DNA from: Planoprotostelium fungivorum
Taxonomy: Eukaryota > Evosea > Variosea > Cavosteliida > Cavosteliaceae
DNA length: 64,000 nucleotides
Reading direction: 5' to 3'
NCBI GenBank assembly: GCA_003024175.1
Contig: MDYQ01000099.1
Location: forward strand, 32,568 to 96,567
Both the position numbers and the translations under genes were made by a program. Below are positions 6,096 through 38,589 of this stretch, in pieces. How positions within the stretch are numbered: position 1 is the first letter of the stretch; every line of letters begins with the position of its first letter. Under the pieces are notes generated by a model. The model saw nothing but the letters and a program-made list of their open reading frames with translations, was not told the DNA's origin and did not search any database.

Positions 6096-6343
6096 ATAAC
6101 TTCATCCAACAAATCAAGGTCACTCTCCATATGATTCGGTTTTTCCGGTTGGTAGTCAAATGGTGCATTGAGAATGGATCACTTCTCTCCCGACTACTGG
6201 AATATGCGCGACAAAAAAATTAGTGATCCAAATGCATGGACACCAACCAGAAAAACCAAATCATATCTTCAACGACTATTTGAGAGCACAGACAAATATC
6301 AGATCACATCTTTGCATGACGGACTCGATCTCTCATGTCATCT

Positions 6344-6424
6344 GATAGCGTGGCCGAGTGGTTAAGGCGGCAGACTGCTAATCTGTTACCTTCGGGTGCG
6401 AGAGTTCGAATCTCTCCGCTGTCG
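6344..6424 (+). tRNA. tRNA-Ser (anticodon GCT)
   Basis: An 81-nt class II tRNA. The 7-bp acceptor stem (GATAGCG with CGCTGTC, one G-T wobble) closes it, with G as discriminator base. The D arm reads GCCGAGTGGTTAAGGC, the anticodon arm CAGACTGCTAATCTG with GCT in the loop (reads AGC/AGU), then a long variable arm and the T arm with GTTCGAATC. A run of seven T follows after four bases, a pol III terminator. Boxes A and B are intact. An inverted copy of the same gene lies at 8616-8696. Confidence 0.95.
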
Positions 6425-6485
6425 TATCTTTTTTTCACCCCCAAAATTCGAAATTAACTCCTTTCTTTTCCCTAGATCTTGGAGG

Positions 6486-8504: not shown

Positions 8505-8615
8505 ATACACTTGAACACATGGTTTCTGGTGCTGCGTTTGGACGACTGATTTTTGTGCATATTTCACTACCAACCGATGAACACCGCGAAGAATAATTTC
8601 TGACAAAAAAAGATA

Positions 8616-8696
8616 CGACAGCGGAGAGATTCGAACTCTCGCACCCGAAGGTAACAGATTAGCAGTCTGCCGCCTTAACCACTCGGCCACGCTATC
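8616..8696 (-). tRNA. tRNA-Ser (anticodon GCT), inverted second copy
   Basis: Reverse complement of this interval is the same 81-nt tRNA-Ser(GCT) as at 6344-6424, with the same acceptor stem, anticodon, variable arm and T arm. A few bases of flank are shared too (CATCT before, TATC plus seven T after). The two genes point toward each other across the zinc-finger exonuclease gene. Confidence 0.95.
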
Positions 8697-8938
8697 AGAT
8701 GTTTGCTCGGTCAAATTCAAAAGCACGTATGTGCGTCATTGATATGCTTGAATCATTGGTGCTATCTGACTGATCGATCACCTCCTTCATGTCGAGTTGC
8801 GAGAAGAATACCGTCACATTGATGTTATATGAGAAAAGCTCGTTAGTAGAGCGACTCCAGTAGCGAAATTCCGCTATCTTCTCTGTTGAGTCTACAATAC
8901 ATTTTTTCTGTCCGATCATCGAAACATCATCTGACGAG

Positions 8939-32209: not shown

Positions 32210-35200
32210 ATGAGGCTGGTTCGTTGGCCTCTCACCTTGTTTCTCTTATTAGCGGGATCACATGGGGTTTCGTCTGACCTTCTCCCAGTGATGAAACAGA
32301 TCTGGAGTGTCTTGGGAGGTGAGACGAGATGATGGTGAGAGGAGATCCTGAAAGGAAGATAGGATCAAGTCAATTTTGGACAGGAACGAACGTGAGCATC
32401 TCGAGGTACTTCAGCCTCTGATTCAAACAGTTTTGCAACCCGGCTGATTTCATCGGTGTTCAATGCTCATCACAGGGTTGGCCCATCTCTCTGAAACTCT
32501 CCAAACAAGGTACCAAATTTTGGTCGCTCACAAATAATAATAATGGGTAGGTCTTACCGGCCCCATTCCACAGGCGATCGGACAGCTGACCAATCTCACT
32601 ATCCTCTTTCTGGATAACAACTACCTGGGGGGTTCAACCATCCCTGATTCCATCGGCAATCTCACGCATTTAGAAAGTTTAGACCTTAGTTCTAGCGGAC
32701 TGAGCGGTTCATTACCTTCCTCTCTCGGACGTCTTCAGAAATTACAGAACATCAACCTCCTAAACTCTGGACAGACGGGCAGCATCGAACCTCTTCTCCG
32801 CATCTCTTCGCTCGTCAGAGTTGAATTAGGAGGTTGCCATCTCTCCGGTCCTATCCCTGATCTCTTGGGGAACTGGCCTAATGTGACCTACCTGTCCGTC
32901 TGGAGGAACAACCTCAACGGCACCATTCCTCCTTCGTTGGCCAAGATGAAGAACGTGAACTTCCTTGACTTTGGTGTGAAAACTTCCCTGAAGATGATCT
33001 CATCTCTCGCAGGTGGTAATCACTTCACCGGTTCGATCCCCGATGTCTTCGAAGGCTTCTCCAATCTCGGTTACCTCAGTTTCTGGAAGTAAGTCGAACG
33101 ACACCCTGAATCCCTCTCACCTCCATCAGCAATCAGATGAACGGCACCTTTCCCCTCTCTCTCCGGGATAGTCATCAGCTCTTTTATCTGGATCTCGCCG
33201 TCAACCAATTTGAGGGGGAAATCCCCTCCTTCGTCTCCACCTTCACCCTCCTCGCTCGTCTCAGTCTGTCCAACAACAAGTTCAGCGGTGCACCTCCCAA
33301 CGCCACCGCGCTGACCCGTCTGGATAGCTTTGCCATCGATCGCAACCAGTTCGAAGGCTCTCTCGATCTCTCTAATCTCCGACTTTTGACTTTCGTCGAC
33401 GTGTCCTACAATGGTCTCACTCAGATCGCGATCAAGGGACTATTTGTCAACGGTTCGTGCTATCTGAACAACAATCTCCTTCCCTGCTATCCTCTATACG
33501 CAACAAAATGTGAGGTGACTTACCTGCCTTGTACTGTGAAGGACAAGATCAACATGCTCTACGACAGTACGACTAAGATATCTACCGCAGAAGCTCAGGT
33601 GAGGATGTCAGGTGACGTTTGACTGAAAGGAGGCAGATCTTGTTGAATGCGACGATACAAGTCCCATCAGAGGTGAGGATCACTCTCTCGCCCACGAGAC
33701 GATCTGATGATGAACCGTAGATCATTCGAGCATTGACGGCCGTCTCCGCGGCATTGCTTCGCAACACCTCCTTCTTCTCCTTCAACCAATCCGGTATCTC
33801 TCTTCAATTGGAGACACGTAATACCAGCGATGGCAGCCATGTCTTCTCTCAGATCAACAATAGCTTCATTTCGGCCAGCTTTCCCTCATCCATCTTGAAT
33901 TCGAGCAGAGGTGATCGTCATCCCTGAACTAACACTGAATTTCGATAGTGTCTGTCTCTCTCTCCTCCGTTTCATTCAATCCCTTCTTGTCCGTGCACAA
34001 CGAAACGATGTGATGGAATGTTTCTGTGATCTCCTCTGATGTCTATTGTAGATACAGCTCCGTGGTGGGCGTGGAAGTGTATGACACGAGAGGAAATACC
34101 ATCGAGATCTCAGATAGTAGAGAGAACGTCAACATCACCATGGGAATCAACATCACCGTACCCGATGGATACGGTGAGCATTTCACACGACTCATCGTCT
34201 TCACATCGCCATCATCACGAACTGAGGAGAGAATAGATGCAGTATGTCAATATTGGAACGAGAGCAATGGTATCTGGTCCAGACAAGGCTGCACCCTCTT
34301 CATTCAAGAACAACTGAGCATCTGTCAGTGCAACCACCTCACCAATTTTTCCATCGGTGCTATCCTTCCTTTGCGGCCTGAACTGTCCAATTCATCGGAA
34401 GCCACTGCCCCCATGGCCCCAGACTCGCCTACAAAGTTGATCATCATCGTGGTAGTTTGTGGTATTGGAGGTCTATTGATGGTCGCCATCATTGCTTTTG
34501 CCACTCTCAGACTCGTGCGGGGGAGAAAGGTGATTCGAATCCATTGATTGAGGCTGAGTGGGAACAGTCGGGAGGGGTAGACATTGGCACACACGCAGAT
34601 GAAGAGGGAGGAAAGATCGAGTGGATAGAGAGAGTCTCGAAGGGCTCCAAGACTGAAGTGTGGAAGGCTATTCATAATGGAGTCACCACGGTGGCGGTAA
34701 AGAAGAGAGACGAAAAGAACATGTACCAATTGGCTCAAGAGGCCACACGACTGAAGGTGAATGAGGATGGAAGTCGATGGAAGATATACTCACTGTCACA
34801 GTCTCTGCATCATCCCAATGTGGTGATGTATCTGGGTCAGAATCTATCTGGTGAGTACATCGAGGGTGAATGTGGCTCAAACAGGAACAGAGAAATGGCT
34901 GATGATAGAGTGGATGGAGGACGGGAGCTTGTATCATTACGTGAAATCGAATCCGCTAACCAGCTACATCCTCTTCAACATGTGATCGACATCGTTCGTG
35001 ACATCAGCTTACAATGATAACAGAGCCTTCGATGTGGCCAAAGCCATGTCTTATCTATCTGAGCAGTGCATCGTGCACACTCAACTCACCCCACTTAATG
35101 TGAGATCATCCCATCGATTCCCTAGTCACTCTCGCCAGGTATTACTACGTATCGTGCATGGTACCGCCGTCGCGAAGGTCACTCACTTCGGCGAGAGCGT

Positions 35201-35627
35201 GGAGGAAGGAGCCAGATATCACCGAAAACCGGAAGACCACACGGTGAGGCAAAGAGTGTGACACACCTGACACACTCAGGCACCCGAGGTGGCACAGTAC
35301 GGAACTCAATATTCGAAATCAGACGTGTGGAGCTATGGAATCCTTCTGTGGTTCATGGCCAGTGGAGGGAGAGAATTTCACCAGGTGCGTCCGAAGACAA
35401 GCGTAGACGTCTGAACCTCGTCGCAGAATTTCAAAAAGAGATCGTCACCTGTGACGGAGGATGGTTGGGAGACGACCATCAAGTCTCTGATACAAGAGTG
35501 CACTCAGATGGAAGCATCCAACCGTCCCATCTTCAGCGATTTGGCCAAGAGATTGAAGCGTGGAGAACTGGAGGCAAAGCAGGAGAAGGCACGTTTCGAG
35601 GATTACGATCCTTACAGCGACCGCTGA
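32210..35627 (+). CDS. LRR / GAIN-GPS / single-TM receptor with degenerate kinase domain
   Basis: Predicted cell-surface receptor. ATG 32210 gives a signal peptide (RWPLTLFLLLAGSHGVSS). A plant-type LRR cap (FCNPADFIGVQC) and about ten extracellular LRRs follow (LTNLTILFLDNNYLGG, HLESLDLSSSGLSGSLPSSL, LNGTIPPSLAKMKNVNFLDF). Next is a GAIN-like region and a GPS motif: CQYWNESNGIWSRQGC then CQCNHLTNFSIGAIL, with the HL/T cleavage site at 34335-34343. One TM helix (LIIIVVVCGIGGLLMVAIIA) leads to a tyrosine-kinase-like domain: Lys kept (TVAVKK), but HRD is His-Thr-Gln, DFG is His-Phe-Gly (35184-35192) and the Gly loop is poor; APEVAQYG and SDVWSYGILLWFM are intact. It is therefore probably a pseudokinase. 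About 15 introns; stop TGA 35625-35627. Some joins at 33600-34050 are uncertain. Confidence 0.85.
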
Positions 35628-35676: not shown

Positions 35677-38321
35677 TCATTTTATTTCTTCCTCTTGTAT
35701 CCGATGTGCTGTGGGATCGTGAGGAAAGTGACGTTGATGATGAAAGATGATGAAACAGATGATGAATTAAATGATGAAACAGATGATGAAAGACTCACAC
35801 ATGAGAGGGGCGCTGAGAGGACTGAGATCAGAGATGACGATGTGATGAATCTTATCCCTGAAGAGATATCGAACCATCAGCCACTTCTCCTCTCCAGGAC
35901 ATGGGTCGTAGAAACCGGGCAGGAAGGACTTGGATCCCTCGTAGAGATGTAACTGTGACTCTTCCACCAGACATTGAACAGCTATCGTCACATCTACAAT
36001 GGCAAACGCTCTGTTCGTATCACCTATTCTCATCAGATGATGATGATGGAGATGATGATGAAGATATGATGATGGAGGTGATGATGATGACGACGACGCT
36101 CACCGTCCACCAATTCTTGAGCTTGGATGTCTTCCAAGAGACCGTAAAGGGCCGTGACGATGATGAGTCCTCTCCTGTTCTCCTCGTGGGATCTCTTGAA
36201 GGCCACTCGGTTGACCATCAATTTGACCGCTGCCTCTGCATCTGCCCTCGCCTCTGCAATCTTGGGAGCATTTCTCGCCCTCTGTGCGTACAGCTTCCTG
36301 TCCAAACCATCAATCCTCTTCTCATCGTTCTCAATAGATACAGATGTCATGATGATCATCATGATGATGTCATGATCAGACGACTCACGTCTGCTTTCTA
36401 GCCCTTCTCTTCGGTTCAACCCAGAGTAATTTGTAGAGAGCGAGAGAGAGTGCAGGACACAAGAGGGAGAAGGCCAACTGCGATGCGGTGGGATCCGTCA
36501 ACAACAAGAAGGGCACGGTCAGCTGAAACGATCCCCAAGATAGTCCCAGCTGGTACTTCATGTTCCCACTCGTTCCATAACTCGTCAAGAAACCGATCTA
36601 CCGCACACGTCAACCATCACACGTGCACATCCTCACCTGATTGTTCTTCGTCATGTTTCTCCATCCACCAAAGGTGAAGGAAGCGTTCGTGTGGGCTCCA
36701 TCGCTCGTCAGCGTCACTTCGGCCGTGGCTCGCATCTTCTTACTGAGTCTCTTCTCCACTTGGATGACGCTGGTCATCCTGCGATCTACCATGTTGGATA
36801 CCATCTCTGTGAAGGATCTCAGGCTGGGGGACTCGAGGGCGAGCGTCGTCTCTTCTCGTGGTTCGGGGGGGGGAGATCGATTTCGGTTGAGCCACCAGGT
36901 GGCCATTCGATCACCCATGGATGAGACGTGTGACCAAGAGGGAGCTCGATAGCCCATGGACACTCTCATCGTCGCCGGTCCGTATTTGTGGGTCACGTAG
37001 ACACTTCCCTTCGTTCCCTGTTTGCATGAGTCATCTGTACACGTGTTCTTCTCTTCACACGGATGTTGAATTCACGTTTCGATTTGGATGATGTTTGGAT
37101 GAATCTCACCGTCTCATCCGTGTGTGTCGTGAACCCAGCGTGAGTGTTGTTTCCAAGGTTACGATCGATTTTCGTGTAGATCCTTCCCTTCCCGTTCTCG
37201 TTCAACACCACTCCACCGAGGACATCACTGTTCGATTCAGAAATCGTCGTGAGGTTCAGACTCACGTGTTGGATGTCAGTTTCTTCGACAATTCGACGCT
37301 CAAATCGGGACCGGAGGGCTTTATCCCCAACTGACGTCGAGTCATTCACATGTGATGAAGAAGAGGATCACGATGATGATCGATGATGACAAACTCTTGA
37401 GATGATGAAGGTGATGATACCTTGGCCGTTAGGTGGGAAGAATGACCCAGATCTCTCTTGAGTTCGGTGGATAATCGACCTTCACTCGCTCTGGATGTCT
37501 GCTTGAAGTGGCCTCTGAAGGTGAGGGAGTAGAGATCAGACAGGGGATAAGGCTTTCCATTTCAGATCGTCATCACCTTCATCCATCTCACCTTTGTCGA
37601 TTGGTTCATCGAGATGGTTTCGATGGTCGGTACATAGAATCTGTTCTCATCAGCTGCATGTCGAGATGGACGATGGTTGATTGTCACCTGTAGCCCTCCC
37701 ACTTCTTGTTGACGAGACTGATGGTGGCATCCGTGTGTCTCAGATGTATCGTCGCTTCCTTCTCCTTCTCCTCTCTCTGCTTCCATTTCTGGAAGAGTTG
37801 ATGCATCTGCAGAGGTCAATTGAACATTGATGATTCGTGTTCGAGTCACCTCCTCCGGTGAAGTATTACGTAAAGCGACCTGATCGAGTCAAGAGTGTTC
37901 AAGATGCGGAGATGTTCACCTGCATAGTGAAATGGAGAGATTCTGGACCGTAACGATCATACATGGCCCTCTTCTGGGGATCGATGAGAGTATCATACGC
38001 CGTTCTGATCTGTTCAAATTTCCGCTCCGCTTGAGATTGCAATTCAGGGGTGAGATTTGCGACATTTGCATTGACTCGATCGGGATGGTAGGTCACCGCC
38101 AAGCGACGAAATGAGCCCCTGATCTCTTCTGTAGTAGCCTTCGAAGACTTTAGAAAATGGATATCAAATGGAAGGATCATACGCACCGTTCTGGACACAT
38201 TGAGAAGTCCATAGAACTCTGGCGACTCTACGGTGGATGTCGGGATCAAAACCTCTTCTCTTTTCTCCTCGTCTCTATCTTTCTCTTTCCATTCATCGAC
38301 CGAATCGATAGGGTTCTCCAT
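35677..38321 (-). CDS. DNAJC11-like mitochondrial J-domain protein
   Basis: Homologue of DNAJC11, a peripheral mitochondrial outer-membrane protein associated with the MICOS/MIB complex. ATG 38319-38321 ([15 protein letters not shown]). J domain: [31 protein letters not shown] (HPD intact) and [20 protein letters not shown]. The middle has beta-barrel-like repeats, then the C-terminal DNAJC11 domain: [39 protein letters not shown] and [15 protein letters not shown]. The last intron (phase 1, about 35706-35795) joins PLM to [10 protein letters not shown], matching the SHRI end of the human protein; stop TGA 35677-35679. It converges with the receptor gene, 49 bp apart. About nine introns, several containing CATCAT-type simple repeats. 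Confidence 0.9.
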
Positions 38322-38589
38322 GGTTGGAGTGATAGAGGGAGGAACAATCTTCCCTCGCTCGCGTGATGTTGGTCGCCTTTCGAATTCAGCAAAGGCGCGG
38401 GAACAATAAACCGCCTTTTTATTTCTTTTTTACCACTCAGAACGCTGCAGCAGGATGAAGACGAGGGTTCTCCGAACGAGAAGACCGTTGGCTGCGATAG
38501 ATGGCTCTGACTGCGTGGATCAGATTCCTCCGGTAGGAAGAGGTCCCAAATGTTGGAAGATGATCATATAACAAGATTTGGCGACGCAG

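Follow-up and report, generated by a model that had tools for sequence, protein, structure and literature searches.

Cleavage at the GAIN/GPS module is known mainly ahead of a seven-helix domain or of a polycystin, and polycystin-1 itself has many transmembrane (TM) helices and no kinase fold. In such systems, the effects of cleavage, of the stalk, and of the 7TM domain are hard to separate. Plant leucine-rich repeat (LRR) receptor kinases are not known to carry a GAIN/GPS between the LRRs and the TM helix. Published accounts treat GAIN/GPS as lying ahead of a seven-helix domain or a polycystin (PMC12716839, PMC13197933), with polycystin-1 able to count as an atypical adhesion GPCR with a GAIN domain (PMC13197933). 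PMC11259431 describes many plant receptor kinases as pseudokinases and reports that BAK1 is activated by the kinase-dead EFR. For the Amoebozoa, a survey that includes Protostelium gives family-2 GPCRs without GAIN (PMC10445921), single-TM kinases exist in Physarum (PMC4758236), and the term "GPS," when looked for, occurred zero times in the main text of PMC4053784 and PMC4758236.

The gene described here lies in a 64,000-nucleotide stretch of Planoprotostelium fungivorum contig MDYQ01000099.1 (the window). An earlier reading of the DNA letters (the sequence-only reading) knew of no described family with the gene's full domain order, which holds for the open-licence literature searched: no described LRR-GAIN-TM-kinase family was recognized in the available portions of these papers, and other work may exist.

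RESULTS

One gene encodes LRRs, a GPS, one TM helix, and a kinase fold

The features of the receptor gene are listed in Table 1. Its 16 introns are all GT-AG and 34-48 nt long, and its spliced exons form a single open frame, with no stop or frameshift across all 17. The combination of LRRs, a GPS, one TM helix, and a kinase fold in one gene, as the sequence-only reading had described it, was recovered in full along this frame. In the spliced 923-residue protein, Pfam detected LRR_1 (63.8 bits), GPS (41.0 bits; cut-off, 22.5), and PK_Tyr_Ser-Thr (125.7 bits; cut-off, 23.1; residues 668-900); on individual exons, the LRRs and GPS were detected and the kinase weakly. Nineteen N-glycosylation sequons lie ahead of the TM segment versus one in the kinase part. 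An LRR ectodomain, a single TM helix, and an intracellular kinase fold, the combination that defines LRR receptor kinases, are therefore present in one chain, together with the GAIN and GPS of adhesion GPCRs and without a 7tm_2 domain directly after the GPS. The domain order recurs in paralogues, and a cap comparable to the LRR N-terminal cap is found in one paralogue on C351 and in the C78 paralogue.

Table 1. Features of the receptor gene in window coordinates
Feature	Position	Strand	Evidence or remark
Receptor gene, ATG to TGA	32210..35627	+	Spliced model: 17 exons, 923 aa, without stops
Predicted signal peptide, MRLVRWPLTLFLLLAGSHGVSS	32210..32275	+	By-eye sequence reading
LRR N-terminal cap, exons 1-3 including introns, ending ...QIWSVLGGSSQFWTGTNFCNPADFIGVQC	32276..32550	+	
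Leucine-rich repeats, exons 4-6	32551..33457	+	Pfam LRR_1/LRR_8/LRR_4
Cys-rich cap and GAIN domain with GPS, N-terminal side of cut	33458..34340	+	Profile match to adhesion-GPCR GAIN structures
Pfam GPS motif	34242..34355	+	C34:66809-66922, 46.2 bits (genome search)
His-Leu/Thr cleavage triad, H586 L587/T588	34335..34343	+	Sequence; CxHLTxF match C34:66896-66916
Stalk, 32 residues, new N-terminal Thr to TM helix (TNFSIGAIL...)	34341..34436	+	
Single transmembrane helix, LIIIVVVCGIGGLLMVAIIAFATLRLV	34437..34517	+	Hydropathy and AlphaFold2 exon model
Pseudokinase domain, exons 11-17	34619..35555	+	PK_Tyr_Ser-Thr match; PDB kinases
beta3 Lys (VAVK), kept	34700..34702	+	
HTQ replacing HRD	35076..35084	+	
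HFG replacing DFG	35184..35192	+	
APE, kept	35280..35288	+	

Elsewhere in the window, two ORFs at 36033-38429 (- strand) match a DnaJ domain and a DnaJ-like C11 C-terminal domain, and this neighbor is probably a DNAJC11-like gene. Two tRNA-Ser (GCT) genes lie in opposite orientation at 6343-6425 (+) and 8615-8697 (-), and GC content, taken in 2-kb steps, is 41-51% along the window.

A GAIN domain with an intact cleavage triad precedes the TM helix

The GPS of the receptor reads C-Q-Y-W...W-S-R-Q-G-C...C-Q-C-N-H-L-T-N-F, and its intact HLT triad predicts cleavage competence, in agreement with the sequence-only reading. That reading had also proposed a search for a GAIN fold N-terminal to the GPS. 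A single-sequence PDB search with the GAIN (E up to 1) returned 12 distinct sequences, all of them adhesion GPCRs, with the best aligned stretches within ~75-90 residues of the cut. A nine-row paralogue GAIN profile (E up to 0.01) matched adhesion-GPCR GAIN structures only (21 of 21 sequences), and its longest alignments extended ~120-150 profile positions ahead of the cut, with ADGRG6 aligned to positions 55-203 (E 1.2e-10) and ADGRB3 to positions 79-210 (E 1e-7). Because these alignments reach so far ahead of the cut, they support a GAIN domain beyond the GPS motif alone. All nine profile rows have both Trp of the GPS, its first three Cys, and HLT, and the last Cys is missing in one of the nine. 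Kyte-Doolittle hydropathy (19-residue window, threshold 1.6) gave a single TM stretch after the GPS, at residues 615-648 with a peak at 620-638. An AlphaFold2 model of the GPS exon alone reached a mean pLDDT of 57.2 and was set aside as fold evidence; its sole confident part was the TM helix (126-158), with pLDDT values of 81-92 in the last three blocks (131-159) and low values in the rest.

The kinase domain lacks both catalytic Asp residues

The catalytic loop of the receptor's kinase domain reads HTQLTPLN and its metal-binding motif HFG, and the glycine loop, which had previously escaped comment, is degenerate (S-K-G-S-K-T). The replacement of HRD by HTQ and of DFG by HFG, next to an intact APE and helix F region, could all be confirmed in the spliced protein; the beta3 Lys, alphaC Glu, APE, and DVWSYG are intact. 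The best PDB matches are EGFR and Lck, and the fold is closest to tyrosine kinases. With the HRD Asp and the DFG Asp both gone from a kinase fold that Pfam and PDB searches recognize, the domain is a pseudokinase, and HTQ, HFG, and the degenerate glycine loop predict that it would not be competent for phosphotransfer. Some pseudokinases retain weak activity. Splicing that restores HRD and DFG was considered and rejected as unlikely, because the altered positions lie inside exons and the loss is common to all 45 members of the clade described below.

The receptor belongs to a very large family

The sequence-only reading had treated the receptor as a single odd gene; instead, the family to which it belongs proved to be very large. 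In the 36.9-Mb genome (471 contigs), a search turned up 176 GPS candidates; 150 of them were scored and all 150 exceeded the Pfam cut-off, so that there are at least 150 GPS matches. The pattern CxHLTxF had 161 matches in the genome versus 26 for the reversed pattern and, among the matches listed (contigs up to C250), was present at 68 of 94 GPS loci. Twenty of the 26 pattern-negative loci were fetched: 19 had HLT, with the last GPS Cys replaced by Thr or Ser in all 19, and one (C171) had no HLT in the stretch read. HLT was likewise present at the C135 GPS locus, outside the CxHLTxF matches. Of the 94 GPS loci on the listed contigs (among 150 GPS loci in all), 89 were thus examined for the triad and 88 of these have HLT, which is retained at GPS loci where the catalytic Asp residues are lost. 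In several of the 19 paralogues with a replaced last Cys (within L125-L144, e.g., L134, L136, L138, L142, and L144), the Cys of the preceding Gly-Cys is also Leu or Ile, the two Cys being gone together; by sequence, it looks as if one disulfide had been dropped with HLT staying. One GPS paralogue (C61:40959-41072, L143) has an in-frame TAA inside the GPS and is possibly a pseudogene.

The DNA behind the GPS was read for 104 of the 150 loci, the receptor gene included, and kinase-like sequence was found on the GPS strand, ~1.5 kb or less downstream of the GPS, at 101 of them (98 alignable, two N-lobe pieces at contig ends, and one fragment recognized by eye). No kinase appeared in the stretch read at the other three (C99:259892, C36:60513, and C304:6274; L070, L076, and L093), the first two of which resemble each other over a short stretch following the GPS. 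Splice models of paralogues were made with a custom spliced-alignment script that took family members as seeds, and rows were accepted at a score >120 and a length >140. The 98 accepted rows scored at least 130, the three kinase-less loci 36-51, and the fragment L108 (kinase-like by eye, with HCT and DFL) 62; these four loci and the contig-end N-lobe fragments L048 and C196:626 were left out of the 98.

The HRD Asp is present in 10 of the 98 rows, the DFG Asp in 27, both in 6, the Asn in 21, and the beta3 Lys in 70, the Lys call being weak in the divergent C196/C335 group, where N-lobes are uncertain. Lys, both Asp, and Asn are all kept in four rows, namely C109 (HTD/DFG), C149:202326 (HGD/DFS), C33 (HGD/DFS), and C234 (HCD/DYG); in the other 94, one or more of these residues is missing. 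Two pairs of the 98 rows are identical on different contigs (C120:17360 / C5:24593 and C1:310224 / C196:42487); these may be haplotype contigs or very recent copies, in which case 150 slightly overcounts the genes. The family is nevertheless probably larger than 150, since C204:65028-65612, with a CxHLTxF site and a kinase match to the receptor protein, lies outside the 150 scored GPS hits. Another GPS locus occurs within 20 kb of 68 of the 150 GPS loci, indicating that tandem duplication is common. Clear LRR arrays lie ahead of the GAIN in the receptor gene and in all four members of its 45-member clade with upstream DNA read (C351 twice, C135, and C78); they alone were used, as regex LRR counts were noisy at several loci (up to 5 hits in the reverse-strand control), and LRR evidence is mixed in groups outside the 45-member clade. 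A genome search found no 7tm_2 match, the same search being blank in control genomes too, and one Dicty_CAR match was recorded.

Loss of the catalytic residues is shared by a clade of 45

The receptor gene sits in a 15-member group, mostly with an HT-x-L-x-P-x-H loop, nested in a 45-member clade. With the catalytic-loop and DFG columns removed, support under LG+G4 (bootstrap/SH-aLRT) was 100/100 for the 15-member group and 100/97 for the 45-member clade. Within this clade, neither the HRD Asp nor the DFG Asp is present in any member (0/45 each); the HRD His is kept in 45/45, the alphaC Glu and the APE Glu in 44/45 each, and the beta3 Lys in 40/45. The residues replacing the Asp include R, Q, S, A, H, L, and N at HRD and G, S, C, N, and H at DFG. 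The HRD Asp changes state at least seven times on the family tree, so that its loss or regain has occurred repeatedly. One 9-member group (SH-aLRT 94, quick tree) holds three of the four intact members.

Among 16 chosen kinases away from the listed GPS loci, the HRD Asp was present in 16/16 and the DFG Asp in 15/15 readable, in a control list from a kinase-family search that is biased toward intact kinases (16 picked from 145 rows; 57-95 bits to PF07714, with the match spanning the catalytic loop). GPS-linked loci within the same list had the HRD Asp in 3/7 and all four residues in 2/7.

The dN/dS of 36 paralogue pairs (62-97% identity) was 0.08-0.57 with a median of 0.23, in overlapping pairs of which 9 have dS >1 and the remaining 27 range from 0.12 to 0.57. 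None of the four all-residue members is among these pairs, and two of the 98 rows, with a stop in the predicted N-lobe, were left out. These low values indicate that the paralogous pseudokinase domains are maintained. The receptor gene, at 54% identity to its nearest paralogue, is too distant for a dS of its own, and its frame is intact. In one adjacent paralogue pair, identity falls outward from the kinase (69%) through the GAIN (62%) to the LRRs (42%, repeat register unsure). No positive selection on the LRRs was detected in this pair (dN/dS 0.41, dS 1.5, with the same unsure register).

DISCUSSION

The explanation that we favor, at a probability of roughly 0.6, is that the receptor represents a large class of single-pass, self-cleaving receptors particular to this lineage, in which the pseudokinases work by allostery or scaffolding. 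The sequence-only reading had suggested signaling by scaffold rather than catalysis; the loss of both Asp with retention of the fold residues makes this the best reading of the domain, and we infer the signaling itself, along with the cleavage, expression, ligand, and partners of the receptor. The chain would enter the secretory pathway, where the GAIN would cut itself at HL/T with the halves staying together, as the intact triad and the GAIN homology suggest. The LRR ectodomain would bind a ligand, e.g., prey, bacterial, or neighbor-cell surface molecules, a role to which the LRRs and the tandem expansion point. Binding or pull could then shift or remove the N-terminal half, and the membrane stub would change its conformation or cluster differently. 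The folded pseudokinase, with Lys and alphaC Glu and without both Asp, would dock on and switch on a separate active kinase, by analogy with kinase-dead EFR acting on BAK1 in plants. A domain held in an active-like shape to bind another kinase would be expected to look like this one, with the Lys-Glu pair kept and both Asp gone, and the four all-residue GPS kinases could be the active partners. A tethered agonist in the manner of GPCRs, which the sequence-only reading had mentioned for GPS proteins, finds no support here, since a single TM helix follows the GPS and not seven. No receiver is known for such an agonist where a stalk of 32 residues leads into one helix, which counts against the favored explanation, as do the 3 of 104 GPS loci without a kinase and the 1 of 89 GPS sites without HLT. 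That GAIN self-cleavage is coupled via one TM helix to a pseudokinase in a receptor class of ~100 or more genes in this genome seems to us an even bet, given HLT in 88 of the 89 examined sites and the 94 of 98 kinases lacking at least one catalytic residue.

A cleavable adhesion or decoy receptor, whose kinase-like domain has no signaling role of its own and serves as an anchor, as a recruiter of trafficking or degradation factors, or in titrating ligand from active relatives, is a minority possibility that we consider unlikely. It would accord with the absence of both catalytic Asp in 45/45 clade members and with the few active-looking relatives in the family, which a decoy could oppose; however, the retention of Lys, alphaC Glu, and APE in 40-44 of 45 members and the low paralogue dN/dS exceed what an anchor would need. 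It is improbable that the domain catalyzes through unusual residues, in the manner of atypical kinases, or carries out another transfer reaction. Nucleotide could bind, to judge from the beta3 Lys and alphaC Glu in most of the clade (40/45 and 44/45), but the substrate- and metal-placing Asp are both lost without a single replacement residue, and conserved chemistry would be expected to fix one residue, which disfavors new chemistry.

That the receptor is a decaying duplicate, a receptor kinase without catalysis en route to a pseudogene, is very unlikely: the large duplicated family, the stop in the C61 GPS, and the stops in two predicted paralogue domains are what decay might leave, yet this gene's 17 exons have no stop or frameshift, its paralogues are under purifying selection, and the Asp loss is common to 45 members, and on these grounds the pseudogene reading was rejected. 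It is scarcely credible that the gene model wrongly joined two adjacent genes (LRR-GPS-TM and kinase), given the GPS-kinase linkage on the same strand at 101 of 104 sampled loci and a joining intron (34529/34568) that is an ordinary 38-nt GT-AG intron.

In this family, the GAIN precedes one helix and an Asp-less kinase fold, with ~100 natural variants and a few active-looking relatives as controls. This setting makes it possible to test what GAIN cleavage does where no GPCR is involved and by what route a receptor pseudokinase hands on its signal. A family of ~100 or more such genes in one genome suggests that these cells may use cut receptors that signal without phosphorylation of their own. 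The picture of amoebozoan-like genomes may also change, with at least 150 GPS motifs of which the sampled ones are nearly all on kinase-like receptors. If the receptor class given even odds above is real, cleavage-gated, catalysis-free signaling would be the chief way in which receptors of this lineage work, and the spread of GAIN beyond GPCRs would be independent of that in animals.

The modules of the receptor are known ones, in an order not found described among the open-licence papers, and they predict a receptor pseudokinase with a self-cleaving ectodomain. With adhesion GPCRs (ADGRL3, ADGRF1, ADGRG6, and ADGRB3), it shares the GAIN with its GPS, the Cys/Trp pattern, HL/T, and a large ectodomain; where they have a seven-helix domain, it has a 32-residue stalk, one TM helix, and a pseudokinase. 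Like the polycystin-1 family, it is a large membrane protein with a GPS cleavage site and not a classical GPCR, but a single TM helix followed by a kinase fold takes the place of the multi-pass region after the GPS. GPCR-kinase fusions (GPCR-TKL/K) also join a receptor to a kinase domain and differ in having seven TM helices, according to PMC12716839. Amoebozoan tyrosine-kinase-type receptors (Acanthamoeba and Physarum) have in common with it a kinase fold closest to tyrosine kinases. The LRR ectodomain, single TM helix, and kinase fold are those of plant LRR receptor kinases and pseudokinases (EFR/BAK1 and DRIK1), from which the receptor differs in carrying a GAIN/GPS between the LRRs and the TM helix.
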